From positions 1 to 57,854 of the forward strand of contig DASTWL010000058.1 of assembly GCA_035765895.1 (NCBI GenBank): 57,854 bases of DNA. Reading direction: 5' to 3'. This document shows positions 9,370-27,287 of this stretch, in pieces. Every line of letters starts with the position of its first letter. The stretch's first letter is position 1. Under the pieces are notes generated by a model. That model did not search any database. It was not told the origin of the DNA and saw nothing but the letters and a program-made list of their open reading frames with translations. A program made the position numbers and the translations under genes. The DNA is from Verrucomicrobiia bacterium (GTDB lineage: Bacteria; Verrucomicrobiota; Verrucomicrobiia; Limisphaerales; DSYF01).

Positions 9370-10644
9370 TCAGCCGTCGCGCGCTGGCCTGACGTCATTC
9401 GGGGCGGGCTGAGAATTGTCTGCCCTTCCTTCCGTCGGCTTTCCTGTTTCCGCCGATTCTTTCGGCAGTTCTCCCTTGGCCATTTGCAGGTGCGGCGCGG
9501 CGCCGTCCAGATCCTCGTGGAGGCGATAGACCCAGGCTTCGCCCCAGAAGAGGTTGCAGCTCGTCTCGGCGCGGAGCAGACGCCAGCGGGCCTGTTCAAG
9601 CGCGTGCGTGAACGCATGGGATTCGAGCTTGAGTTCCTTCGCCCGGGCTTCGGTCGCGTGCAAATTCGCGCTGAAATCGTGGAGGCGTTGCAGCGCGTCT
9701 TTCTGCAGCTGCGAGCCGGTCCACTGGAGAAAATCCACCCCGTGATGCCAGCCGGTATTCCACGCGCCGGTGCGCACGGTCACTTCGCCGTGCGCGCCGT
9801 ATTGGTCAAGGTAATCGTGGATGAACGTGGGTTGCACCTCGGTCTGGCCGGCGCGAACACGGTCGAGCAGCTCGCGGTAGCAGACATGCCAGAAATTTCC
9901 CTTCTCGCTCGTGTTGCGGAACCAGCCGCCGTTGTCGCCGTCGGTGGCGGTGAGGACGAGCGGTGGGAAGTCACAGAACTTCGTGCGCTCGTGCAGCTCG
10001 TGCATGAACCAGCCCGCGTCCATGCCGGAAAGCTGCGCGTCGGAAAGCTCACGGTCGCGCACGACGACAATGATTTCCTCGCCGCCGTAACGCGCGATGT
10101 GGGGACGGTAGCGCAGTTCCTCCCAACGCATCTCGCCGACGGGCTCGACGTGGTGGCTGTCCACCATCACGTAGCGGTAGCCCATGCGCTTGAGCAGCGG
10201 GATGAGCTCCATGCAGAAGCCCATCTCGGACGGCCAGAAGCCGTGGAAATCTTTCCGCCAGAAAACGTGCTCGGCGATGCCCCGCCAGCGTTTGAGCTGT
10301 TCCTCGCGGTCCGCCGCGGGAATCAACGCGAGCACGGGATGATAATAACCCGTGCCGAGGACATCGAAAAGCTGCCGGTTCTGGAGATGCCAGAGCAGGT
10401 CGCCGCATTTGACGATGCCGAAAACGCGTTCCTGAAATGTCGGATCAATCAATGTCTCCAGCAGCGTGCCGGACATGGCGAGGTGGACGCGCGCGACGTC
10501 TTCGTAGCCCCATAACGCGCGCGGCATGCGGTCGAGCGCCCAGAGGATTTCCTTGGCCTCCCACTCGTTGTTGTCGAGCAGCCACTGCAAATTGCCCGGA
10601 GGCTGATGCAGGTTCAGCGTGAGGGCGTGGAAGATTTTGCGCAT
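9370..10644 (-). CDS. Glycoside hydrolase family 57-like enzyme
   Basis: A 424-residue GH57-type protein. The start MRKIFHALTLNLHQPPGNLQ carries the family LHQPP motif. The segment FHGFWPSEMGF holds the likely catalytic Glu, and TATDGDNGGWF holds the likely catalytic Asp with the conserved following GGW. GH57 enzymes are alpha-amylases, branching enzymes or 4-alpha-glucanotransferases, which fits the glycogen neighbourhood. It is the last gene of the minus-strand glucan run. Its 5' end is duplicated by a 38-base direct repeat, and a RAYT gene separates it from the FRG gene, so its original promoter may have been displaced. Exact activity is not predictable. Confidence 0.85.
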   Translation of the reverse strand: MRKIFHALTLNLHQPPGNLQWLLDNNEWEAKEILWALDRMPRALWGYEDVARVHLAMSGTLLETLIDPTFQERVFGIVKCGDLLWHLQNRQLFDVLGTGYYHPVLALIPAADREEQLKRWRGIAEHVFWRKDFHGFWPSEMGFCMELIPLLKRMGYRYVMVDSHHVEPVGEMRWEELRYRPHIARYGGEEIIVVVRDRELSDAQLSGMDAGWFMHELHERTKFCDFPPLVLTATDGDNGGWFRNTSEKGNFWHVCYRELLDRVRAGQTEVQPTFIHDYLDQYGAHGEVTVRTGAWNTGWHHGVDFLQWTGSQLQKDALQRLHDFSANLHATEARAKELKLESHAFTHALEQARWRLLRAETSCNLFWGEAWVYRLHEDLDGAAPHLQMAKGELPKESAETGKPTEGRADNSQPAPNDVRPARDG

Positions 10645-10768: not shown

Positions 10769-11626
10769 TCATTTGTTTCGCCACGGTCTAAGCCGACTAC
10801 AAGTCGGCGCTCCATCTCCTTGCGGGGCGCCACTCTTTGAGCGGCTTCGCGCTACCGGGTATTTCAACCGTCCAAGCTCATCGCGAAACCGCGCGCTACT
10901 CCAGGGCCATTCCTTCGCTTCACGCACGAGCCCGGCTTTCGCGGGATTGTTTTCGATGTAACTCACCGCCGTTCGGTGGTGTGCATTATTCTCGATCACA
11001 GTGTCGAGATACTCGCGTTCCCAGAATTCGCCGCGGCGTCCGAGCAGCTTGTTCGCTTCATGAGCGACAAAGGCCTTCCAACTCTTGATCAACTCCGACA
11101 GCGGCGTGTCCCAAACATCCACGAGCGCATGCAGGTGATTCGGCATGATGACCCAAGCGGCCAGTGCGTAACGTTGACCATCAAAATGGCGCAACGCACC
11201 CTCCGCCAGGCTGGCGATGGCGGGCTGGCGTAACCAGCAATCACCAAGGCTGCGATCCAGATACTCCTCCAGTTTTCGCCGCCGCTCGCGAAGATTCTCG
11301 ATTTGCAGCAAATGCTCCCATTCCCGACGACGGCTTGCTGGCAAAGAATCGGCGAGGCGTAAGGTGATGATTTGTGTGATGCCGGGCGCATCGTAATGAG
11401 GCAGATAGCTGCGTTGATGCCAGCCTAAGAATCCTTTTGCTTTGGCATCCTCATCAAGTGGGACTGCCCACGACTGCTTGCCGGTGACTAGCTGTTGCAG
11501 GCCGGGATTGTAAGGGGGTCGTGAAAGCTGCGAACACTTGGGAGCGCCGGCCTGTGACCGGCTTTGGGCGGGAATGCCTTGAGTTTTGTCCCGCTTAGTT
11601 TGCATCGCACGCGGGATGGTGGTCAT
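10769..11626 (-). CDS. REP-associated tyrosine transposase (RAYT, IS200/Y1-like)
   Basis: An HUH single-strand transposase-like protein. The metal-binding HUH motif is MPNHLHALV (His164, His166). The likely nucleophile is Tyr206 in FWEREYLDTV, followed by the family segment AVSYIENNPAKAGL and WPWSSARF. The upstream GWHQRSYLPHYDAPGITQ motif is also typical of RAYTs. The gene is bracketed by two inverted pairs of REP-like hairpins, and two of the four overlap its coding ends, so the N-terminal ~35 and C-terminal ~15 residues are partly repeat-derived. MTTIPRAMQT (11626) or the inner Met at 11605 could start it. RAYTs are usually single-copy domesticated enzymes that mobilise REPs; that role here is inference from context. 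The reading frame is intact. Confidence 0.88.
   Translation of the reverse strand: MTTIPRAMQTKRDKTQGIPAQSRSQAGAPKCSQLSRPPYNPGLQQLVTGKQSWAVPLDEDAKAKGFLGWHQRSYLPHYDAPGITQIITLRLADSLPASRRREWEHLLQIENLRERRRKLEEYLDRSLGDCWLRQPAIASLAEGALRHFDGQRYALAAWVIMPNHLHALVDVWDTPLSELIKSWKAFVAHEANKLLGRRGEFWEREYLDTVIENNAHHRTAVSYIENNPAKAGLVREAKEWPWSSARFRDELGRLKYPVARSRSKSGAPQGDGAPTCSRLRPWRNK
10789..10813 (-). repeat. REP-like hairpin 2, inverted
   Basis: Read on the minus strand it has the same GGAGC foot, with a 7-bp stem GCCGACT/AGTCGGC and the TAAG tail complement. It lies inside the 3' end of the RAYT coding region, encoding the GAPTCSRL residues. Confidence 0.85.
11541..11565 (+). repeat. REP-like hairpin 3
   Basis: GGAGC foot with stem GCCGGCC/GACCGGC (one mismatch) around TGT. 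It lies within the 5' coding part of the RAYT gene, encoding part of residues 20-30. Confidence 0.85.
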
Positions 11627-11731: not shown

Positions 11732-12922
11732 TCATGGGAAAAATTGTTCCTTCAACGACCGGCACACTCCGTCAAGACCGGGGAAGAGCGATGCAGCGGT
11801 GACGCCCATGTAGGCAAGGTCTCGCATTGCAAACTCTCGCTCCAATCTTGGTATGTCGATGATTGTTAAATACTGCCTCTTGTTAATTCGTTCCCTAAAT
11901 CTAATCCATCCCTCAATGTCTTCGACGTTACTGAAGGCATGCACAGACTGCTGTGGCAGGTGTCTGGGGTTGTTGTGAGCCGGAAACTCTTCAACTGTGA
12001 TTACGGGTCGCGGGTCGGCGAAATGTAACGCTTGAGCCGTATCGTTCTTCCAAGCCGTTGCGTCCAAAACATAGATGCGATGATTGTCGCTTGCTGGTTC
12101 GGTTTTAAGGCGGCTCGACAGGGCAAAATATGCGGCCACATACGGCGACCATGACCAATCAAGGAGCGGAGTCGGGAACCCGTGGTGCTGCGCTAAACTG
12201 AGAAGCGCACCGAAGTCTGCCGGGTTGCTTCGGTTGTATTGGCGAAAGCTAGTTGCATTTATGTGCTGCTCCAATCGTTTACAATCCTCCTCATTGTATC
12301 GCAGTAAATCATACCGATTCTCGCGGTGAAACGAGGTCTTAAGCCGGTGATTGCTTGAAGCTTGGCCTCGGAAAATATATTTACCGCGCCCTTTGATTAA
12401 CTCTGCGGCGAACCGCTTAAACTCTTCCCATGATTGAATCTTGTCGGGTTGGCTAGGTTCGCTTTGCTTCAGTCGTGTCGCATTGAACGTGCCCGGTATC
12501 GACTGACCTCTATATTTCCCATGCCAGCTACAAGTCAGGGTTGTGGCGTCAATAAACCCTTCGTCGATTGTGATTTCTTCGAAATAAAAAACCTTGCCTT
12601 CCTGTCTGCGCACAGACTCCTCCACGGAGATGGTTTCGTTTTTCCTCCAATCGAAAACTATGGTGGAAGCTGACTGCCCTGTGATTCGATTGCCTGCTCC
12701 GATTTGCAGAGTGAAATCTTTCCGGCTCCCGTGGATTTGCTGCCCTTGATCAATACAGGCAAATCCGCTCTGGGGCCGATCTCGCTCGATATTGAACGTC
12801 GCAAAGCCGGGAAATGCAAACGATCCGTCTTGTGACGATTTACCCTCAAACTTTCCAATCCATTGACCAAAGATGGTTTCTGGTGCCTTGCCTTGATTGA
12901 GGTTGTTGGTGGACGCTTGCAT
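11732..12922 (-). CDS. FRG-domain protein with N-terminal beta-rich domain
   Basis: A 396-residue protein. Residues ~15-150 are rich in short beta-like strands (TIFGQWIGKFEGKSS, FATFNIERD), with no recognised family. A linker follows, and from about residue 165 an FRG domain contains its namesake YIFRGQASSN and a downstream LLDWSWSPYVAAYFAL segment. The FRG domain is widespread but its biochemical role is unsettled; it turns up in accessory and defence-type gene neighbourhoods. No signal peptide is seen. The base composition is visibly more AT-rich than the flanking glg genes, and the gene interrupts the glgB-GH57 order, so lateral acquisition is likely. Function unknown. Confidence 0.82.
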   Translation of the reverse strand: MQASTNNLNQGKAPETIFGQWIGKFEGKSSQDGSFAFPGFATFNIERDRPQSGFACIDQGQQIHGSRKDFTLQIGAGNRITGQSASTIVFDWRKNETISVEESVRRQEGKVFYFEEITIDEGFIDATTLTCSWHGKYRGQSIPGTFNATRLKQSEPSQPDKIQSWEEFKRFAAELIKGRGKYIFRGQASSNHRLKTSFHRENRYDLLRYNEEDCKRLEQHINATSFRQYNRSNPADFGALLSLAQHHGFPTPLLDWSWSPYVAAYFALSSRLKTEPASDNHRIYVLDATAWKNDTAQALHFADPRPVITVEEFPAHNNPRHLPQQSVHAFSNVEDIEGWIRFRERINKRQYLTIIDIPRLEREFAMRDLAYMGVTAASLFPGLDGVCRSLKEQFFP

Positions 12923-12965: not shown

Positions 12966-15212
<2,247 letters not shown>

Positions 15213-15375: not shown

Positions 15376-17433
15376 TCACTTCGCCCGGATGTAATCGTAA
15401 ATGTTCAGGTAATGCTGGCCCGGATGGTTCCATGAAAAATCCGACCGCATCGCGTTCAGCATCAGATGCCGGAAGTGTTCGGGATACTGATAATAGCACG
15501 CGATGGCGCGGTTCAGCCCGGACTCCATGCCGGCGTTGTCCGCATGGTCGAACACGTAGCCGTTGCGCTCATGCAATGGACGGTGCGAATGATCCTTGTC
15601 GAACACCGTGTCCACCAGGCCGCCGACGGCGCGCACGATCGGCACCGTGCCGTAGCGCATCGCGATGAGCTGTGTCAGGCCGCACGGCTCGTAGCGGCTC
15701 GGCACGATCATCATGTCTGCGCCGGCGTAGATGAGCCGCGCCAGTTCTTCGTGGTAGCCAATTTCGAGGTGGCAATCCGGGCTGTCGTTCAAATGCCGCT
15801 TCAACCCGAGGAAATGATCGTTGATGCCGTGCTCTGGGCTGTTGCCGAGCAAGACGAACTGCGCGCGATTGTTCAGCGAATGGAAAATCGCGTGGCGGAC
15901 GAGTTCCAAACCCTTCTGCTGGTCGAGCCGCCCGATGAACGCGACGATCGGCTTTTCATTGTCCGCGAGCCAGAAGCGCTGCCGCAACGCGCGCTTGTTC
16001 GCGTATTTCTGCTCGATGCTCTGCGCGTTGTAATGCGCCGGGATGTGCTTGTCCGTTTCCGGATTGAACTGCTCGTAGTCGAGCCCGTTTAGCACACCGC
16101 CGTATTTGCATTGATGAATGTGCAGCGTCGGTTCGAGGCCGAAGCCCTGCCCGCCGTCCTTGGCCTCCCACGCGTGCCGGGGCGACACCGTCGTGACAAA
16201 GTTCGAGTAAACGATGCCGCCCTTCATCAGGTTGAGCGCATGATGATTGTGGTTGTCGCGCAGGCGGTCGTAATGGAAGAAGTATTCAGGCCGGTTCAGC
16301 CCCGTGGCGCGCAGGATGTGTTCGCCCGTCGTGCCCTGGTGGCGGAAGTTGTGGATCGTGAAGCACACCCGCGGGTGCCGCATGCCCAGATGTTGATACA
16401 TCTCCCAGAGCAAAACCGGCACCAGCGCCGTCTGCCAGTCGTGGCAGTGGATGACATCCGGTTGCTTGCCCGTCTTGAGCATGAATTCGAGCGCGGCGCG
16501 GCAGAAGAACGCGAAGCGCAGCACGTCGTCGTTGTGGCCGTAATAGACGCCGCGATTGAAGAAGTTGTCCGCCGAGTGCGGCTCGATGAAGAAACACTTC
16601 CGCCCGTGGACGAACCCGAACCACACGCTCGTGTTGATGACGCCGCCATACCACGGCACCGGGAGATTCTCATACGTTTTGGTCAGACCCCAGACGTGGT
16701 CATAACGCATGTGGTTGTATTTCGGCAGAATGATCTCGACGGCGTTGCCGCGCAATTCGAGTTCGCGGGCGAGACCGTAGACCACGTCGCCCAAGCCGCC
16801 GACCTTCGCGACGGGCGCGAGTTCGGGTGAAATCATCATCACGAACATGGGCGGAGTGGATGGCTTCGGCGGAGCGGGAGCTTCGGCCACCGGTGCGGCA
16901 TCTTCCGCCTTTTCCTCCGGCAATTTCAACTCCGGAACTTCGCGGATGATTTGTTCTTCAGAGACGGGTGCTGTTCTGGCCGGTGAGGGTTTGGTTGCGA
17001 TGGGGGCAGATGCTGCGTGCGAACTTGCTTCCGGCGCGCCGGCGGGTTTGGGCTCGGCCTTTGTCGCTGGAGTTGCAGCAATCGGAGCCACAGGCGCCGC
17101 AACGGTTCGGGATTTCGCTTCTGGCCTCGGCTTAACCTCGGGCGAAGGCGCTGCAGGCTGTCGGTGGGGCTCCTTGGTGCTTTCCACCCGTGTCGGTGCG
17201 AATGATTCGGCCGGGGGTGTGGTGGCCTTGGGGAGAATCGCAGCCTCCAAAACATCGCTCAAGCTGGCGAGCCCAGCGGCCGGCGCCGGAGTGGCTGCCG
17301 GGGCGGTCGCTTTCACTGGATCGGGGGTGGAAGATTCTGGAGGTTGGCTCGCTGTGCTTGGCGCGGGTGCGCCGGAAGCGGGGTTGGTTTGTGCCGGCGA
17401 GCTGGGCGTTTTGGACGAGCGTTTCTTGGCCAT
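15376..17433 (-). CDS. glgA: Glycogen synthase (GT5) with ~195-residue Ala/Pro-rich N-terminal extension
   Basis: Elongates alpha-1,4-glucan from an NDP-glucose donor. The GT5 core starts at about residue 196 (MFVMMISPELAPVAKVGGLGD), with the nucleotide-sugar K-x-G-G-L motif. It ends with the C-domain SRYEPCGLTQLIAMRYGTVP and GGLVDTVFD. In front lies a low-complexity segment rich in Ala, Pro, Ser and Lys (MAKKRSSKTPSSPAQ onward), with no signal peptide and presumably disordered. An internal ATG at 16848 would give a standard-length enzyme, but the extension has an uninterrupted frame and strong coding bias, so 17433 is preferred. The gene is divergent from GWD across 160 bp, probably sharing a control region. 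Confidence 0.94.
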   Translation of the reverse strand: MAKKRSSKTPSSPAQTNPASGAPAPSTASQPPESSTPDPVKATAPAATPAPAAGLASLSDVLEAAILPKATTPPAESFAPTRVESTKEPHRQPAAPSPEVKPRPEAKSRTVAAPVAPIAATPATKAEPKPAGAPEASSHAASAPIATKPSPARTAPVSEEQIIREVPELKLPEEKAEDAAPVAEAPAPPKPSTPPMFVMMISPELAPVAKVGGLGDVVYGLARELELRGNAVEIILPKYNHMRYDHVWGLTKTYENLPVPWYGGVINTSVWFGFVHGRKCFFIEPHSADNFFNRGVYYGHNDDVLRFAFFCRAALEFMLKTGKQPDVIHCHDWQTALVPVLLWEMYQHLGMRHPRVCFTIHNFRHQGTTGEHILRATGLNRPEYFFHYDRLRDNHNHHALNLMKGGIVYSNFVTTVSPRHAWEAKDGGQGFGLEPTLHIHQCKYGGVLNGLDYEQFNPETDKHIPAHYNAQSIEQKYANKRALRQRFWLADNEKPIVAFIGRLDQQKGLELVRHAIFHSLNNRAQFVLLGNSPEHGINDHFLGLKRHLNDSPDCHLEIGYHEELARLIYAGADMMIVPSRYEPCGLTQLIAMRYGTVPIVRAVGGLVDTVFDKDHSHRPLHERNGYVFDHADNAGMESGLNRAIACYYQYPEHFRHLMLNAMRSDFSWNHPGQHYLNIYDYIRAK

Positions 17434-17593
17434 ATCGCTTCACGCACGACGGGGTTTGGCGCATGCGTTGCTCAAAGGCTAGCCCTGAGCGCGACGCGGC
17501 CAAAGCAAAAACCCGCCGGGGTCCGTAAAAATCGCTGCACAGCGCCCGGCGAAATAATTTGCACGCGTCGTCAGCGCCACTTACCAATCGTTT

Positions 17594-20500
17594 GTGCTGG
17601 ATGAGTTGATCAAAAATCGCGCCGACCTGTGGCTCGGGGTGGAAAAACGAAGCCACGGCGCCGAATTGGAGATCGTTCTGCGCCTCAAGGGTGCCGGGCG
17701 ACAGGTGCTGCATTGGGGCGTCGCGTCGCGCCGTTCCGGCCAATGGCAGGCGCCCGCCGAATCCGCCCGGCCGCCCGGCACCGTGTCCGCCGGCCAACAA
17801 GCCGTGCAGACACCGTTCCCGGCGGTGGAAGGCGAACGCTCCCTCACGCTGCGCTTCGCCGAGGCCGATGCCCCGCGCTTCCTTGTGTTCGTTTTGTTCA
17901 ATGCCGACGCCAACCGCTGGGACAACAACGGTGGGAAAGATTACTGGATCCAGCTCGTCGAGCGCCCCACCTCTGCGTTGCCGCTTTCGGCGTTGCAGGA
18001 GCGCATCGTTGCGGGCGAGATGGGGCCGCACGGCTGGACGCTCATGCACCGGTTCAACCTGTGCCACGAGTTGATTGACGAAGCAGGCGATGCGCGCGAT
18101 GCCTGGGCCACGTTGTTCGTCTGGCTGCGCTACTCGGGCATCCGCCAGCTCGACTGGCAGCGCAATTACAACACCAAGCCGCGCGAACTTTCCCACGCGC
18201 AGGACCGGCTGACCGCGCGGCTCGCGACCGCCTTCATCCAGCAACCCACCAACCGCGACCTCATCCGCGCCCTGCTCGCGTGCCTGGGCCGCGGCGGCGA
18301 CGGCCAGCGCATCCGGGATGAAATCCTCCAGATCATGCACCGCCACCACATCAAGGAGGTCGGCGGCACGTGGATGGAGCAATGGCACCAGAAGCTGCAC
18401 AACAACACGACGCCCGACGACGTCGTCATCTGCGAGGCGTATCTGGCGTTTCTCCACGCGAATGGCGACTTGCGGGCTTACGATCAAACCTTGCTCGCGG
18501 GCGGAGTAACGCGTGAGCGATTGGCCGGCTTCGAGCGGCCCATCACGCAAAATCCCGAGTGGCATCCGCACCTCAAGGACGCGTTGCTCCATGACTTCGG
18601 CAACTACCTCGTGCTGCTCAAGTCGGTTCACTCCGGCACGGATTTGTTCACGGCCATCAACGCGGCCGGTCACCTGCTTGATGGCGGCGCGCGCGACACG
18701 CTGGGCTGGCTGTTGCACAACTTCCAGAATCCGCACGTCGGCGTGACCGACCTGGTCAGCGGCATCACAAAGGTCCGCCAGACGCTGCACGCGCGGCTCA
18801 ATCACGAAGGTAACGCGGGCATCGTGAAGGAACTGCTTTACCTCGACCTCGCACTGGAACAGGCGTTGCGCACCGTCATCGAGCGCGCGATTCATTCCGG
18901 TTTCAGCGGGGAGCAACTGGTGGACCTCATCGCCCGCGCGACGGAGAACCTGCTGCTCGTAGCGCAGGCGTCCTCGCCCGCGAGTTCCGGCACCGTCCCG
19001 GTGCCGGACGGGAACGCTCGAACCGGCGGCGGGACGCCGCCTCCACTCGCAGCCGGGACGGCGGCGCCACCCGATGAACTTCCCCAATGCCAGCGCGAAT
19101 GGCAGCGGCTCCCGGCGGAGCAACGCTTCAGCCCGGATTGGGCGTTGCACGCGAAAGCAGCGCTTGACCGGCTGCGTCGCGCCGTCGAAGGGCAGATTGA
19201 TTCCGCCTACCAGCTCCTCCAGCCGAAAGCTGAGGTGCTGGGCAAAGCGTTCGAGGCCGACCAATGGGTCGTGAAACTTTTCTCCGAGGAAGTCGTGCGC
19301 GGACAGTCGGTCTTCCTGCTCTCAATGCTGATCCATCATTTCGATCCGGTGCTGCGCAAGCTCGCCAAACTCGGTGACTGGCAGGTCATCAGCCCGAGCA
19401 GCGCGATGGGTGAAGTGCTGGTGGTGGAGTCGTTCCGGGCGGTGCAAGGAAGGCGTTTTGAGCAACCCACCATAATCGTGGCGGAAAAAGTTTTCGGCGA
19501 CGAAGAACCACCCGAAGGCGTGCGCGCCGTCATCACGCCCAGCTCGGTGGATCTCGTGTCGCACGTCGCGGTGCGGGCGCGGAATGCCAACCTGCTCTTT
19601 GCGACGTGCTACGATCGCGCCTGCTTCGACCGGCTCAAGGCGATGCCGGGGCAGGTGGTTGAACTCCAGGTCAGCGCAACGGGCGATGTGTTGTTCGCCG
19701 CGTCCGCGGGGAAAATTCCCAAGACGCCGGCGCGCCGGAACGCGCGGCCCCAAGCCAGGGTGGCGCCCGCGAAGCCTTCGCTGGATGTGCTGACAATGGC
19801 GGAATTCACGAAGGGCCGCGTCGGCGGGAAGTCGTGGCACCTCAAGGAACTCAGCGCGAAGCTGCCCGACTGGCTGCGCACGCCGCGCTCGGTGGCGCTG
19901 CCGTTCGGCGTGTTCGATGCCGTGCTGGCGGACGAGGCGAATGCAGCAGTGGCCAGGCGTTATCAGGAACTACGGAAGTTGCTCGAACACTACAGCCAAC
20001 CCCTCACCCCGTCCCGCTCCCCATCCGATGGGGAGCGGGTGGCCGAAGGCCGGGTGAAGGGAGGCGTTGACAGTCCAGAAGACCGGTTGGCAGAGATGCG
20101 CGCAAGCTTGCTGGAGTTGGAAATTCCGGCGGCGTTACAGGCGAAGCTTCAGGCGCTGATGCAAAGGACTGGTCTTCCGGCAGCGAAAGACTGGGCCATT
20201 GCGGCAAAGCGCATCAAACAAGTCTGGGCGTCGAAATGGAACGACCGCGCGTATTTCAGCCGCCAGGCGCGCGGCTTTCCGCACGAGGCCGTGCAGATGG
20301 CGGTGTTGATTCAGGAAGTCATCGAAGCCGAGTTTGCGTTCGTCATTCACACGGTGAATCCATTCACGGGCAATCATGACGAAGTGTATGCCGAGGTCGT
20401 GCCGGGCTTGGGCGAAACGCTGGTGGGCAATTATCCCGGCCGGGCGTTGAGCTTCGTTTGCCCGAAGAAAAGCGGCGCACCAACCGTGCTGGCGTATCCG

Positions 20501-20809
20501 AGCAAGAGCGTCGGCCTGTTCGGCGCCGGGTTGATTTTCCGCTCGGACTCGAACGCCGAAGACCTCGAAGGCTACGCGGGCGCCGGTCTCTACGACAGCG
20601 TGCTGCTGACGGAACCGCAGGAGCGGACGCTGGATTACACTTCCGAGCGGCTCGTGTGGGACGTCGCGCAGCGCGCCGGGCTGCTCGGCCAGATTGCGCG
20701 CCTCGGTGAAGTGGTGGAGCAGGCGTTTGGCGCGCCGCAGGACATCGAGGGCGCCTTCAGCCACGGGAAATTCTTCGTCGTCCAGACCCGGCCCCAGGTG
20801 GGATTGTGA
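17594..20809 (+). CDS. gwd: Alpha-glucan, water dikinase (GWD/R1-like)
   Basis: Predicted to phosphorylate glucose units in a storage glucan using ATP and water (beta-phosphate to glucan, gamma to water) through a phosphohistidine. The N-terminal ~125 residues resemble a GWD-type starch-binding module (LHWGVASRRSGQW, NRWDNNGGKDY). A helical middle follows (WMEQWHQKLHNNTTPDD). The phospho-His domain has His657 in VDLVSHVAVRARN. The C-terminal ATP-binding domain has YAFVIHTVNP-like and GLGETLVG segments, FRSDSNAEDLEGYAGAGLYDS and QDIEG...VVQTRPQ, all closely plant-R1-like. The start is GTG at 17594; a TAA lies 39 bases upstream and no ATG intervenes. Two in-frame palindromic inserts are present (residues ~457-494 and ~803-824). 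At 1071 residues it is shorter than plant GWD because it has one N-terminal module instead of two. Confidence 0.92.
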   Translation: MLDELIKNRADLWLGVEKRSHGAELEIVLRLKGAGRQVLHWGVASRRSGQWQAPAESARPPGTVSAGQQAVQTPFPAVEGERSLTLRFAEADAPRFLVFVLFNADANRWDNNGGKDYWIQLVERPTSALPLSALQERIVAGEMGPHGWTLMHRFNLCHELIDEAGDARDAWATLFVWLRYSGIRQLDWQRNYNTKPRELSHAQDRLTARLATAFIQQPTNRDLIRALLACLGRGGDGQRIRDEILQIMHRHHIKEVGGTWMEQWHQKLHNNTTPDDVVICEAYLAFLHANGDLRAYDQTLLAGGVTRERLAGFERPITQNPEWHPHLKDALLHDFGNYLVLLKSVHSGTDLFTAINAAGHLLDGGARDTLGWLLHNFQNPHVGVTDLVSGITKVRQTLHARLNHEGNAGIVKELLYLDLALEQALRTVIERAIHSGFSGEQLVDLIARATENLLLVAQASSPASSGTVPVPDGNARTGGGTPPPLAAGTAAPPDELPQCQREWQRLPAEQRFSPDWALHAKAALDRLRRAVEGQIDSAYQLLQPKAEVLGKAFEADQWVVKLFSEEVVRGQSVFLLSMLIHHFDPVLRKLAKLGDWQVISPSSAMGEVLVVESFRAVQGRRFEQPTIIVAEKVFGDEEPPEGVRAVITPSSVDLVSHVAVRARNANLLFATCYDRACFDRLKAMPGQVVELQVSATGDVLFAASAGKIPKTPARRNARPQARVAPAKPSLDVLTMAEFTKGRVGGKSWHLKELSAKLPDWLRTPRSVALPFGVFDAVLADEANAAVARRYQELRKLLEHYSQPLTPSRSPSDGERVAEGRVKGGVDSPEDRLAEMRASLLELEIPAALQAKLQALMQRTGLPAAKDWAIAAKRIKQVWASKWNDRAYFSRQARGFPHEAVQMAVLIQEVIEAEFAFVIHTVNPFTGNHDEVYAEVVPGLGETLVGNYPGRALSFVCPKKSGAPTVLAYPSKSVGLFGAGLIFRSDSNAEDLEGYAGAGLYDSVLLTEPQERTLDYTSERLVWDVAQRAGLLGQIARLGEVVEQAFGAPQDIEGAFSHGKFFVVQTRPQVGL
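18964..19075. repeat. Palindromic repeat inserted in frame in GWD (insert 1)
   Basis: A GC-rich block encoding a low-complexity Ser/Pro/Gly/Ala stretch (ASSPASSGTVPVPDGNA...). It contains a perfect 9-bp hairpin stem CCGGCACCG/CGGTGCCGG at 18987-18995 and 18999-19007, and GGCGGCG/CGCCGCC-type palindromes after it. It lies between the helical middle and the phospho-His domain. Confidence 0.8.
19997..20065. repeat. Palindromic repeat inserted in frame in GWD (insert 2)
   Basis: A perfect 12-bp stem CCCGCTCCCCAT/ATGGGGAGCGGG (20013-20024 and 20028-20039) is flanked by CCCTCACCCC on the left and CGGGTGAAGGG on the right. The outer sequence matches the start of the larger repeat at 28409-28560. 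It encodes PLTPSRSPSDGERVAEGRVK in the linker before the ATP-binding domain. Confidence 0.85.
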
Positions 20810-20810
20810 A

Positions 20811-21644
20811 ATGAAACTGCGCATTGGCAACCAGACCGCGCACTCGGCGAGTTCGATGTTGGAACCGTTTGAGTTCGCCCTGGCCAACGGCTTTACCGCA
20901 TTCGAGTTTTTCCCGGATCGCGGGCCGATGGACGCGGGCGGATGGGATGAACGGGAGGTGGATGCCGCGGCGCGGCGGGCCATCCGGCAGAGCGCGCAAG
21001 CCCAGGACGTGATGCTCACGGTGCACGCGCCGCTGGACTTCAATCCGCTGCGGAATCCCGAGGACGGCCGGCTTTACAGCACCATTGAATTCGCGCACGC
21101 CATCGGCGCGACGTTGGTGAACGTGCATCTGGATGCGCGGGACGGCGCCGGGCATTTTGTGCGCGCGCTGCGGCCGGCCTTGGTGCTGACCGCCGAGGCC
21201 GGTCTGAAACTGGCGGTGGAGAACACCGTCTGGACCGGGCCGGAGGATTTCAACGCGCTGTTCGACGCCCTGCGGCAATGTGCGGACGTGCCGACGGCGC
21301 ATGTGGGCATGTGTTTTGATCTCGGCCACGCCAATTTGTTTGAAGCCACACGCAACAACTACTGGCGCTATTTCGACGCGCTGTCGCCACGCGTCCGGGT
21401 CATTCACCTGCACCTGCACGAGAACCACGGCGACAAGGACAGCCATCTGCCGCTCTTCACCGGGCCGTCGGGCTACAACGCCACCGGCCTGGCGGGACTG
21501 TTGCGGCGGCTGCAGCAGCGGAATTTTGACGGTTGCGCGATTCTGGAGCAATGGCCCCAGCCGCCGTCGCTTCTGGTAAACGCGCGTGACGGATTGCTCA
21601 ACTTGCTTCATGCTGTGGGGGCAGCGGAGGCAAGTTTTGCATGA
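20811..21644 (+). CDS. Sugar phosphate isomerase/epimerase-like TIM-barrel protein
   Basis: A 277-residue xylose-isomerase-like (AP endonuclease 2 superfamily) barrel. Metal-ligand candidates are seen in LAVENTVW, CFDLGHANLFE, HLHLHENHGDKDSH and the C-terminal ILEQWPQ. The first strand is RIGNQTAHS. These proteins isomerise or epimerise sugars or act as related lyases; the substrate is not predictable. It starts one base after the GWD stop and its end overlaps the GH13 start (ATGA), so it is co-transcribed and probably coupled with both. Its position argues for a role in glucan-derived sugar metabolism. Confidence 0.85.
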   Translation: MKLRIGNQTAHSASSMLEPFEFALANGFTAFEFFPDRGPMDAGGWDEREVDAAARRAIRQSAQAQDVMLTVHAPLDFNPLRNPEDGRLYSTIEFAHAIGATLVNVHLDARDGAGHFVRALRPALVLTAEAGLKLAVENTVWTGPEDFNALFDALRQCADVPTAHVGMCFDLGHANLFEATRNNYWRYFDALSPRVRVIHLHLHENHGDKDSHLPLFTGPSGYNATGLAGLLRRLQQRNFDGCAILEQWPQPPSLLVNARDGLLNLLHAVGAAEASFA

Positions 21645-22915
21645 TCATCTACAACCTTTTTCCATTGTTGGCCGGCAATGTCCGGAACTGGACGCCGCAT
21701 CTGCAACGCGCCGCGGACCTGGGCTTCGACTGGGTGTTCATCAACCCGGTTCACTATCCGGGCTACTCGGGCAGCCTGTATTCGGTGAAGGATTATTTCC
21801 GGCTCAATCCGTTGTTCGTGGAAGGCACCACGCCGCGCCAGCAGGCGGCGGAATTCAAGCGGATGGCGGCGACCGCAAAGAAGCTGGGCCTGAAACTCAT
21901 GGTGGACCTCGTCGTGAGCCACTGCGCGTTTGATTCCGATCTGATTCGGCAGCATCCCAAGTGGTTCAAACACGAGCACGGCAAAATTGCGCATCCCTGG
22001 TGCATGGAGGGGGAGAAAAAGGTCGTCTGGAAGGATCTCGCGCAGTTCGATCACAAGCACACGCCGGACAAGGAGGGGTTGTTCCGGTATTTGTTCGAGG
22101 TGGTGGAGTTTTTGATCAGCCTCGGCGTGCAGGGATTTCGCGCGGACGCGGCTTACCAGGTGCCGGACGTCTTCTGGCAACGGCTCATCACCGAGACGCA
22201 CAAGAAACATCCGGGGGTGGTGTTCCTCGCCGAAACGCTGGGCTGCTCGCCGGCGCAGACGGCGCAGACCGCGCGCGCAGGTTTTGAATACATTTTCAAC
22301 AGCTCGAAATGGTGGGACTACACGAGCCCGTGGCTGCTGGAGCAATACAACCTCACCCGCGCCTTCGCCAAATCCGTGAGCTTTCCCGCCAGCCACGACA
22401 CGCCGCGGCTGGCGGGAGATTTGCCCGACGACCTCGCGGCCGTCAAACGGCAGTATCTGTTCAGCGCGCTGTTCTCGGCCGGCATCATGATGCCGATTGG
22501 CTTTGAATTTGGCTTTCGCCGCCGGCTGCATGTCGTGGACACGCGGCCGACCGATTGGGAGGAAACCGGCGTGGATTTGTCGCCGTTCATCCGCGCCGTC
22601 AACCACATCAAGGCCGCCAATCCGGTTTTTCAGGAAGACGCGCCAACCGAGGTGCTGGCGACGCAGAATCCGAACATTTTATATCTGTGGAAGGGTTCGT
22701 TGTCGGCCCGGCAGGAGGCCCTGATCATTCTCAACAAGGACCGCGCGAACAAACAGCACTTCGCCACGGACAACTTGTATCGCGACATCCAGGGCAGCGG
22801 TCCGCTCTACGACGTGTCGCCGGAATATCCGTTGGATTACCTGCCCACGCCTTACGAATACGGTTTGCGGCCGAGCCAGGTCATCGTGCTGGTCACCAAA
22901 CCGGGCAAAGCGTGA
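21641..22915 (+). CDS. Alpha-amylase-family (GH13) enzyme
   Basis: A 424-residue GH13 barrel without a signal peptide, so cytoplasmic. Motifs are GFDWVFINPVHYPGYSGSLYSV (start of barrel), MVDLVVSHCAFDS, the nucleophile Asp in GVQGFRADAAYQVP, the acid Glu in VFLAETLG, and the third carboxylate in ASHDTPRLAG. A short C-terminal beta domain follows. Members of this fold hydrolyse or transfer alpha-glucan chains. The barrel opening (LAGNVRNWTPHLQRAADLG) resembles intracellular maltosyl- or glucan-transferring GH13 subfamilies, but no specific activity can be claimed. It is the third gene of the GWD operon, so a role in remodelling phosphorylated glucan is plausible inference. Confidence 0.88.
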   Translation: MIIYNLFPLLAGNVRNWTPHLQRAADLGFDWVFINPVHYPGYSGSLYSVKDYFRLNPLFVEGTTPRQQAAEFKRMAATAKKLGLKLMVDLVVSHCAFDSDLIRQHPKWFKHEHGKIAHPWCMEGEKKVVWKDLAQFDHKHTPDKEGLFRYLFEVVEFLISLGVQGFRADAAYQVPDVFWQRLITETHKKHPGVVFLAETLGCSPAQTAQTARAGFEYIFNSSKWWDYTSPWLLEQYNLTRAFAKSVSFPASHDTPRLAGDLPDDLAAVKRQYLFSALFSAGIMMPIGFEFGFRRRLHVVDTRPTDWEETGVDLSPFIRAVNHIKAANPVFQEDAPTEVLATQNPNILYLWKGSLSARQEALIILNKDRANKQHFATDNLYRDIQGSGPLYDVSPEYPLDYLPTPYEYGLRPSQVIVLVTKPGKA

Positions 22916-24878: not shown

Positions 24879-26330
24879 TTACTTGCCCGCCGACAACGCC
24901 TGGAGCGCGGCTTCGTAAACCATCCTAAGCGGGACGCCGGCTTGGGCAGCCGCCGCGCGGCACGACTCAAATTCCGGTGCGGCCTGAACGATTTCCTCGT
25001 TCAGCCGTCCCAGCTTGACGGTGATTTCGCCGTAGGGCGTCGCCGCCTGGATCAACTCGCGCCGCAGCTTGCGCCGCTCGGCCAGCGTGCGTCGCACCCC
25101 AAAGGCGGTCGTTTCGCGCAGGAGCATTTCCGAGAACCGGTCGGCATCCGCCTCCGCACACAGCACGGTCAGCAACACGGCGGGCCGGTTCTTCTTCATC
25201 TGGATCGGCGTGTGGAACACATCCAGCGCGCCGGCGGCCAGCGCCCTTTCCACGAAGGCGCCGAGCCATTCGCCGCTGATGTCGTCGAGATTGGTCTCAA
25301 GCACCGCGATGGTGTCGGTCTCCCAATCGATCGCGGCGGGCGGATTGAGGCGGGCGGATGCCGCGGGCGAAGTTTCCGTTACCCAGGGCGCGGGCGCCGG
25401 GCTCTCGGGCTGTTCGGCGTCCGGCGTTTCGGGTTCCGCGCGGTGCGTTTCCCCCAGCACCGCCCGCAGCACATTGGGGCGCGTCTGGTTGTCGCGCGTG
25501 CCGAGTCCGAAGCCGACCTTTTCCGCGACCAGCTCCTGCATCGGCCCGAAGCTTTCGGCGAATTCGGCCAGCAGCGCGGCGCCGGTCGGCGTGACGAGTT
25601 CATGCGGCTCCTCGCATTGCGTGACGGAAATGCCCCGCGCGCCGAGAATGCCCAGCGTTGCCGGCGTGGGCAGCGGAAACCGGCCGTGCGCGCAATTCAC
25701 CCAGCCGCTGCCTTCCTGCACGGGCGCGGCCAGCACGCGCGGCCGGCCGAGCAGTTCCAGCGCGATGCACGCGCCCACAATGTCCACGATGGAATCCACG
25801 GCGCCGACTTCGTGAAAGTGCACCTGTTCCGGCGGTTTGCCGTGCACCTGGCCTTCGGCCACCGCGATGCGATGGAAGACCGCGATGGCCTTTTCCTTAA
25901 CCCATTCCGAAAGCGCGCTGCGCGAGATGAGCTCGCAAATATCGGTGAAGTTGCGTTCGTGCGAATGCTCAGGTTGGGCCGGGCTGGTGGCGACCGGATT
26001 GTATTTGGTGAAGGAGGCGTTCAAAATTTTCGCCCCGCTGCGTTTCGGCTTGGCGGGCGGATGCACGTGCGGCACTGCATGTGGATGAGGATGGGGATGC
26101 GGGTGCGCGTGAGAATGGCCATGATTGGCGGGCGATTCCAGATGGACGTCGAATTTGGTGCCGGCGATGCCGGACTTCTCCTTCCGGGCGACGCGCAGGT
26201 GATAACCGTTCACCCCCAGCTTGGCGATTTCGTGTTCGAGCTGGTGCGCATCCACGCCCAGATCGATCAGCGCGGCAATGAACATGTCGCCGCTGATGCC
26301 GCTGAAGATGTCGAGGTAGAGGGTTTTCAT
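24879..26330 (-). CDS. larC: Nickel-pincer cofactor biosynthesis protein LarC
   Basis: Inserts nickel into the pyridinium dithiocarboxylate pincer cofactor, using CTP in the characterised enzyme. The N-terminus LYLDIFSGISGDMFIAALIDLG is the LarC signature. A His-rich stretch (HGHSHAHPHPHPHPHA) near residues 70-90 is the expected nickel-binding loop. The HFHEVGAVDSIVDIVG-like core and the C-terminal PYGEITVKLGR follow. In some lactobacilli LarC is made by a programmed frameshift, but here it is a single 483-codon frame. A Pro/Ala/Thr-rich linker lies near residues 295-340. It lies downstream of larB on the same strand. Confidence 0.95.
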   Translation of the reverse strand: MKTLYLDIFSGISGDMFIAALIDLGVDAHQLEHEIAKLGVNGYHLRVARKEKSGIAGTKFDVHLESPANHGHSHAHPHPHPHPHAVPHVHPPAKPKRSGAKILNASFTKYNPVATSPAQPEHSHERNFTDICELISRSALSEWVKEKAIAVFHRIAVAEGQVHGKPPEQVHFHEVGAVDSIVDIVGACIALELLGRPRVLAAPVQEGSGWVNCAHGRFPLPTPATLGILGARGISVTQCEEPHELVTPTGAALLAEFAESFGPMQELVAEKVGFGLGTRDNQTRPNVLRAVLGETHRAEPETPDAEQPESPAPAPWVTETSPAASARLNPPAAIDWETDTIAVLETNLDDISGEWLGAFVERALAAGALDVFHTPIQMKKNRPAVLLTVLCAEADADRFSEMLLRETTAFGVRRTLAERRKLRRELIQAATPYGEITVKLGRLNEEIVQAAPEFESCRAAAAQAGVPLRMVYEAALQALSAGK

Positions 26331-26424
26331 GGGAGGGGTGAATGAGTTGCAAAAGCGAAAGGTTTAATCAGTCCAATGGCGGATGCAGTCGGCATGACTC
26401 AGGCAACTCTTTCGCTCATGTAAC

Positions 26425-27201
26425 TCATTTAACTGCTGCACTGTTTTGGCTGGCCGCCAGCGCATTGACCTGGCTGGCGGCGAACCCGGCGCCAAAGCCG
26501 TTGTCAATGTTCACCACGGTCACGCCGCTGCCGCAACTGTTCAGCATGCCCAGCAACGCGGCCAGTCCGCCGAAGCTGGCGCCGTAACCGATGCTCGTCG
26601 GGACGGCGATCACGGGCCGGGCCACCAGGCCCGCGACCACGCTTGGCAACGCACCTTCCATGCCAGCGACCACGACGAGGACGTTTGCGCGCTGGATGGT
26701 TTCCAGCCGGGCCAGCAGGCGATGCAACCCGGCGACGCCAACATCCCAGATGCGTTCAACCCGATTGCCCATGATCTCGGCGGTAAGTGCCGCCTCCTCG
26801 GCCACGGGCAAATCGCTGGTGCCCGCGCAAATCACGGCCACCGTGCCCGGGCGTTTGGGCAGGGGCGTTTTCTCAATGGTGAGGCAACGGCCCACTTCAT
26901 GGTGAACGGCCGCCTTGAACTTGCGGCAAACGGCCCGGGCTTGCTCGGGCGTGACGCGGGTCACCAGCACGCGGCCGTTGTGCTCCACCAGCTTGGCGGC
27001 GATTTTCACGACCTGCGCCGGGGTTTTGCCCGCGCCAAAGATGACCTCGGGAAACCCGTTGCGCAGCGCGCGGTGCGTATCGACGGAGGCAAAGCCGAGA
27101 TTCGCCACGGGCGCGGCTTGAAAGGCTTGGAGCACGGTTTCGCGGCTGGCCTGGCCCGCACGAAACTTCTCGAGCAACTGGGTGGCTTCAGATGTCGTCA
27201 C
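26425..27201 (-). CDS. larB: Nickel-pincer cofactor biosynthesis protein LarB
   Basis: Carboxylates and hydrolyses nicotinic acid adenine dinucleotide, the first step of pincer cofactor synthesis. It has an N-terminal helical segment (ATQLLEKFRAG) followed by a PurE-like Rossmann domain: AVICAGTSDLPVAEEA, VVAGMEGALPSVVAGLV, AVPTSIGYGASFGGLAALL and NIDNGFGAG. The start is uncertain. The GTG at 27201 gives 258 residues, typical for LarB; a TTG 18 codons upstream is less likely. The 223-base open frame reaches back into nothing conserved. The larB-larC order is conventional; larA and larE are not in the window. Confidence 0.94.
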   Translation of the reverse strand: MTTSEATQLLEKFRAGQASRETVLQAFQAAPVANLGFASVDTHRALRNGFPEVIFGAGKTPAQVVKIAAKLVEHNGRVLVTRVTPEQARAVCRKFKAAVHHEVGRCLTIEKTPLPKRPGTVAVICAGTSDLPVAEEAALTAEIMGNRVERIWDVGVAGLHRLLARLETIQRANVLVVVAGMEGALPSVVAGLVARPVIAVPTSIGYGASFGGLAALLGMLNSCGSGVTVVNIDNGFGAGFAASQVNALAASQNSAAVK

Positions 27202-27287
27202 GCGCGCACCATGCCACAGCTTACGCCATCGGTCACGCTGCAAACTCGCCGCCAAAACGACGGCGGCCGCACCAGTTCGTGGGGCGG

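Follow-up and report, generated by a model that had tools for sequence, protein, structure and literature searches.

We analysed a 57,854-nucleotide stretch of DNA from a Verrucomicrobiia bacterium (contig DASTWL010000058.1; hereafter the window), in which the open reading frame at 17594–20809 on the forward strand encodes a 1071-residue protein that is, judged by its sequence, a full-length alpha-glucan, water dikinase (GWD). The frame starts with GTG and stops with TGA at 20807–20809. From the N-terminus, we observed a single CBM45-like domain (residues 8–121; 17615–17956; PF23166, 77.2 bits), a GWD central helical domain (residues 148–591; 18035–19366), a phosphohistidine swivel domain (residues 596–700; 19379–19693) with the catalytic His657 at 19562–19564, and a C-terminal ATP-grasp nucleotide-binding domain (19817–20806) that carries FRSDSNAEDLEGYAGAGLYDS at 20537–20599. 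The swivel domain matched PF22973 (GWD1_pHisD) at 117.5 bits against a cut-off of 27, and PF01326 (PPDK_N) matched C-terminal of it (101.7 bits, residues 742–945). The central domain matched the solved plant GWD central domain (9ha9 and 9qvi; phmmer, 277 bits, E about 1e-81), with about 42% identity over 400 alignment columns and an invariant WHQKLHNN. In the window protein Pfam reported just these three domains, all well above their cut-offs (N-terminal, phosphohistidine and PPDK_N), with no phosphoenolpyruvate (PEP)-, pyruvate- or drug-binding domain and no match to CBM20, the mark of PWD/GWD3, in whose place it has PF23166.

The original prediction, made from the DNA letters alone, had proposed a GWD on the basis of an R1/GWD phosphohistidine motif with His657, a C-terminal motif and a GWD-like N-terminal module, and had preferred this identity to PPDK or PEP synthase. 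We recovered all of these features, and the tree that it had suggested as a check placed the GWDs in their own clade (99/100), not inside PEP synthase/PPDK. Scanning a single genome for each species, we obtained about 17 full-length relatives and several partial ones (42–70% identity). His657 and the C-terminal core FRSDSN(A/G)ED..GAGLY(D/E)S were conserved in the bacterial relatives spanning them, and 177 positions of the window protein, including His657, were invariant across the alignment. The residues needed for GWD chemistry appear intact. The N-terminal domain is Ig-like with conserved H40, W41, W51 and W109; we infer that PF23166 is CBM45 and predict that the domain binds glucan. A custom hidden Markov model gave a double-length N-terminal match in 11 of 20 bacterial GWDs, resolved by Pfam into two stretches in one locus (L013; loci of relatives are labelled in this way), which we read as two putative tandem CBM45-like copies.

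We also compared an AlphaFold model of the window GWD (mean pLDDT 81) with solved structures. Residues 1–123 resembled the beta-sandwiches of isoamylase and CBM56, residues 595–707 the His domain of the Enzyme I N-domain (Z 8.5, 103 residues), and residues 727–1071 the ATP domains of rifampin phosphotransferase and PEP synthase (Z 25.5, rmsd 2.5, 280 residues). Because the phosphohistidine domain precedes the ATP-grasp domain and there is no PEP-binding barrel, the domain order matches GWD, not PEP synthase/PPDK. NCBIfam PEPS models matched the ATP-grasp domain only, far below their cut-offs, and the GWD clade was split from PPDK/PpsA (96/97), whose branches were very long. A PEP synthase or PPDK identity was rejected on these grounds. 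The dN/dS of the gene against three relatives was about 0.15–0.2, which indicates that it is maintained under purifying selection and led us to reject a pseudogene. By analogy with the plant enzyme, the window GWD very probably phosphorylates an alpha-glucan.

The next gene on the forward strand encodes a 277-residue TIM-barrel protein (20811–21644; PF01261), our candidate phosphoglucan phosphatase, and is followed by a gene for a GH13 alpha-amylase-superfamily enzyme (21641–22915, forward strand). The operon of these three genes that had been predicted was evident at both junctions: GWD and TIM-barrel genes lie 1 nt apart (TGAaATG), and the GH13 gene overlaps the TIM-barrel gene by 4 nt (ATGA). 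In 20 of the 21 loci able to show the order, the TIM-barrel gene follows GWD directly (about 0.8 kb later in L026). The GWD family was present in 7 of 58 close relatives of the window genome, and the TIM-barrel subfamily exceeded 400 bits in exactly these 7 (next best, 59 bits); these genomes are kin, three of them in one family, and a chance estimate based on the counts would overstate the linkage, but five families are covered in all.

We assessed the likely chemistry of the TIM-barrel protein from its fold and metal ligands. The nearest solved structure to its model (pLDDT 93) was MJ1311 (Z 26.8), and ketose 3-epimerases followed at Z 22–23.6. When a profile of 17 TIM-barrel sequences was aligned to E. 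coli Nfo with hhalign, all nine zinc ligands fell on identical residues, invariant in the 17 sequences (H72, H106, E137, D170, H173, H201, D210, H212 and E246, opposite the established ligands H69, H109, E145, D179, H182, H216, D229, H231 and E261 of Nfo). Among solved chains, the profile matched endonuclease IV, whose three-metal site hydrolyses phosphoesters. The protein scored 49 bits against the NCBIfam model of CbiR (NF041277), below its cut-off of 105. CbiR, a cobamide phosphodiesterase, belongs to the AP endonuclease 2 superfamily and was likewise found through gene context (PMC7733943). Given the endonuclease-IV three-metal site and the CbiR precedent, we propose phosphate removal by the TIM barrel and tentatively regard it as a phosphoesterase on the glucan. 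A phosphodiesterase role on another phosphorylated sugar is also possible.

In 7 loci of the 20, the TIM barrel is the N-terminal portion of a larger protein, a second dikinase (about 1150–1220 residues) with its own phosphohistidine and ATP-grasp domains (by Pfam in L013, L016, L021 and L023; by blastp and alignment in the others). L018 and L022 have a separate TIM-barrel gene and then the second dikinase. No second dikinase was found in the window genome, which would thus run GWD and the TIM barrel alone. The TIM barrel could instead be a sugar isomerase/epimerase, or a ring-modifying enzyme on glucan-derived sugars, as the many ketose 3-epimerases among its fold neighbours and the numerous isomerases in PF01261 would allow. 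However, we consider this less likely, since the nine endonuclease-IV ligands are identical while in the epimerase UlaE TIM-barrel positions 106, 173 and 212 are occupied by Ala, Asn and Lys (hhalign), the profile matches endonuclease IV, and the fusions with a dikinase hint at phosphate chemistry.

Two further genes accompany the TIM-barrel or GWD genes in relatives. A conserved protein of about 356 residues with no Pfam match is encoded directly 3' of the TIM-dikinase fusion in three loci from three phyla (L013:17411–18478; L021:8815–9888; L016:6481–6939). In Scalindua, a PF03372 (endonuclease/exonuclease/phosphatase) gene ends just upstream of GWD (L013:8605–9885) and is possibly another phosphoesterase of the module.

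On the other side of GWD, the window contains genes for glucan synthesis. A second glgA (15376–17433, reverse strand) is divergent from GWD, as predicted, across a 160-bp intergenic region (17434–17593) presumed to hold the promoters of both genes. Farther along the reverse strand are glgB, encoding a branching enzyme (12966–15212; 978 bits), and a GH57 gene (9370–10644). The GlgA adjoining GWD has a Pro/Ala-rich N-terminal extension and is, on similarity, of the starch synthase IV (SSIV) type: among solved structures it was nearest to plant SSIV (6gne, 452 bits, vs 225 bits for bacterial GlgA; a similarity comparison, no tree). The window genome has two GT5 synthases, and the other (G000:C78) is an ordinary bacterial GlgA (353 bits to Agrobacterium GlgA vs 270 bits to plant SSIV); the two share 35% identity. 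Close relatives of the SSIV-type GlgA were 61–90% identical to it. An alpha-glucan phosphorylase is encoded elsewhere in the window genome. The original prediction had been silent on the SSIV type of this glgA, on the TIM-barrel metal site and GWD linkage, on GWDs in several phyla, and on the published tree cited below.

We observed similar company for GWD in relatives. In other Verrucomicrobiota, Fibrobacterota (L021) and Omnitrophota (L027), an SSIV-type glgA either adjoins GWD or is found elsewhere in a genome that has GWD; in L027 the GWD and glgA reading frames overlap. A GT4 synthase with a GH57 or GlgB branching enzyme replaces it in L011 and L038, the latter in the order synthase, glgB, GWD, TIM barrel, GH57. 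Counting GT5 or GT4 synthases and/or GlgB or GH57 branching enzymes, GWD was so accompanied in the window, L012, L017, L020, L021, L027, L037, L038 and L011, which makes synthesis genes its most regular company after the TIM barrel. GH57 also adjoins GWD in L014, L021 and L038, and the GH13 gene is kept beside it in L009, L010, L011, L023, L024 and L026. In GWD loci, a DUF4912 domain adjoins the glucan synthase or is joined to it in one protein (L017:7153–8274; L011:8385–10139), a placement that suggests a glucan-related role.

Other neighbours in the window were also noted. An FRG-domain protein is encoded between glgB and the GH57 gene (11732–12922, reverse strand) and adjoins an IS200-like transposase-domain protein (10769–11626). 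At 24879–27255 (reverse strand), a PF01969 nickel-insertion (LarC-like) protein stands beside an AIR-carboxylase-domain (LarB-like) protein, a pairing as in lactate racemase cofactor synthesis.

Together, the GWD, TIM-barrel and glucan-synthesis genes probably constitute a self-contained bacterial module for the synthesis, phosphorylation and dephosphorylation of an alpha-glucan, and the substrate of GWD is likely to be the cell's own storage glucan. Some bacteria may therefore control their stored glucan as plants control starch. Several observations weigh against this reading. L014, the exception among the 21 loci, has GWD but no TIM-barrel gene in its 12-kb contig. The TIM-barrel fold is common to endonuclease IV and sugar epimerases at similar Z, so it is only the ligand pattern that argues for phosphoester chemistry. 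Elsewhere in the window genome there is also a gene for a DSPc-type phosphatase. Finally, G002, from the same family, keeps the SSIV-type glgA, glgB and GH57 genes with no GWD or TIM-barrel gene seen, which indicates that the phosphorylation module is not needed to make glucan. Its locus (L036, G002:C84) illustrates that the GWD and TIM-barrel genes can be lost, or be absent, together.

The GH13 and GH57 genes that accompany the dikinase would also fit a role for it and the TIM barrel in the breakdown of imported or environmental starch, and Bacteroidetes have CBM45-like domains on secreted GH57 enzymes. But the constant partners are synthesis genes (glgA, glgB, or GT4 with a GH57 branching enzyme), no transporter was seen among the annotated adjacent genes, and ATP-dependent phosphorylation requires a cytosolic substrate; we judge this alternative improbable. 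The Bacteroidetes proteins combine GH57, a CBM45-like domain (PF23166) and a Por-secretion tail (L028:7982–10846, which also has CBM26; L030:8042–10495), with a similar protein at L029:1117–3501 by blastp only. They place this glucan-binding module outside dikinases in bacteria.

We then examined the distribution and descent of GWD. The family was found in Verrucomicrobiota, Planctomycetota (Scalindua and Anammoxibacter, both anammox), Nitrospirota, Fibrobacterota, Myxococcota and Omnitrophota, and no relatives of either dikinase were found in viral contigs. A survey of PF22973 across the window's phylum detected it in 1 of 388 genomes, the window's own, so the gene is rare and its distribution patchy. 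Phyla are intermingled in the central-domain tree, with Nitrospirota joined to Anammoxibacter (96/95) and Luteolibacter marinus grouped with the Pedosphaera-like group of the window (99/95). This mixing suggests horizontal spread of GWD among bacteria. The plant sequence fell outside all bacterial GWDs on a long branch, and the bacterial GWDs were nearly equidistant from it (35–44% identity); plant data here are one sequence, the central domain from the PDB, and the tree is unrooted and gives no direction for an ancient transfer.

These distances bear on whether the GWD gene was recently acquired from a plant or alga. Plants are the best-known carriers of both SSIV-type glgA and GWD, and lateral gene transfer has been raised for some bacterial GWDs (PMC6260743). 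The external position of the plant sequence and the equal distances make a recent plant gift unlikely, however, and the gene has no intron and a G+C content of 0.647 against 0.622 for the window; we consider such a transfer very unlikely. The weakest alternative, a dikinase for another acceptor like PEP synthase or rifampin phosphotransferase, has in its favour that these are the nearest solved structures to the ATP-grasp domain, but we consider it very improbable given the glucan-binding N-terminal domain, the GWD-specific central domain, the setting in a glucan locus, the lack of a PEP-, pyruvate- or drug-binding domain in the Pfam scan and the presence of a separate 935-residue PPDK_N protein at G000:C77.

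If the module operates as we propose, SSIV-type GlgA would elongate chains from ADP-glucose, GlgB would branch them, and GWD would use its CBM45-like domain to dock on the polymer. GWDs are known to transfer the beta-phosphate of ATP via a histidine to glucose C6 and the gamma-phosphate to water. In the window protein, the ATP-grasp domain would pass the beta-phosphate to His657, releasing AMP, with the gamma-phosphate going to water, and the swivelling His domain would deliver the phosphate to a glucosyl hydroxyl, probably C6 by analogy. As in plants, the glucan phosphate may make the chains pack less tightly and so expose the polymer to breakdown. The TIM barrel, made from the same operon, would then strip the phosphate so that the exo-acting GH13, GH57 and phosphorylase enzymes could proceed. 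From its context, the TIM barrel would be the missing phosphoglucan phosphatase, in the role of SEX4/LSF2.

Bacterial GWDs are not entirely without precedent, since some bacterial and cyanobacterial sequences are visible in a 2018 GWD tree (Fig. 9 of PMC6260743), and the window protein adds a new member to a known family. According to the same paper, GWD had been seen in starch accumulators only and emerged together with the primary plastid, and some bacteria could have gained it by lateral gene transfer. A 2025 paper only speculates whether bacterial glycogen is phosphorylated (PMC13011383). Our search of the open-licence literature turned up no work on the function of a bacterial GWD; subscription work may exist. 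As far as we searched, the module of GWD, SSIV-type synthase, TIM barrel with an endonuclease-IV site and TIM-dikinase fusion is undescribed. Bacterial GWD loci with their own synthase make the question of glycogen phosphorylation directly testable, including in a cultured strain (Luteolibacter, now Neoluteolibacter, marinus NBU1238; L022). A TIM-barrel phosphatase, if true, would be a new enzyme class for glucan phosphate removal, of interest to starch engineering and to the understanding of excess glycogen phosphate.

We compared the module with known systems. The window GWD resembles plant and algal GWD1/R1 (EC 2.7.9.4) in having a CBM45-like N-terminal domain, central domain, phosphohistidine domain and C-terminal ATP-grasp domain in the same order. 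It differs in its setting, a bacterial operon that brings along a synthase and a candidate phosphatase, and in the redox motif CFATC of plant GWD, which reads LFATC in the window protein and lacks the first Cys in all aligned bacterial GWDs. CFATC is confined to land plants and does not define GWD. It is reported to be missing in green and red algae too (PMC11986951). Plant GWD also has two well-separated CBM45 domains (PMC6243121), whereas the window protein has one. Relatives with a second phosphohistidine and ATP-grasp dikinase directly after the GWD or TIM-barrel gene recall plant PWD/GWD3; PWD has an N-terminal CBM20, whereas the bacterial second dikinase has a TIM barrel in the fused forms scanned (a comparison at the level of domains).

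The TIM barrel shares its fold and all nine Nfo ligands with the endonuclease IV/CbiR/MJ1311 branch of the AP endonuclease 2 superfamily, but forms a subfamily of its own, which is highly conserved and tied to glucan dikinases. Its proposed job, glucan phosphate removal, is that of SEX4, LSF2 and laforin; these are cysteine-dependent dual-specificity phosphatases, whereas the TIM barrel is an unrelated metal-dependent protein. With plant starch synthases III/IV the window GlgA shares its similarity to SSIV, the nearest of the solved structures, but it is encoded in a GWD locus in a bacterium. Chlamydiae belong to the same PVC group as the window genome. Published work traces the plant SSIII-IV genes to chlamydiae (PMC4041918). 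The link between GWD and an SSIV-type synthase bears on the origin of plant starch metabolism. In a broader and rather doubtful scenario, bacteria of this kind, not early algae, could be the source of plant GWD plus SSIII/IV, and a complete cycle of phosphorylation and dephosphorylation would operate in several phyla, with a TIM-fused second dikinase in some lineages and the TIM barrel as a new family of metal-dependent phosphoglucan phosphatases.

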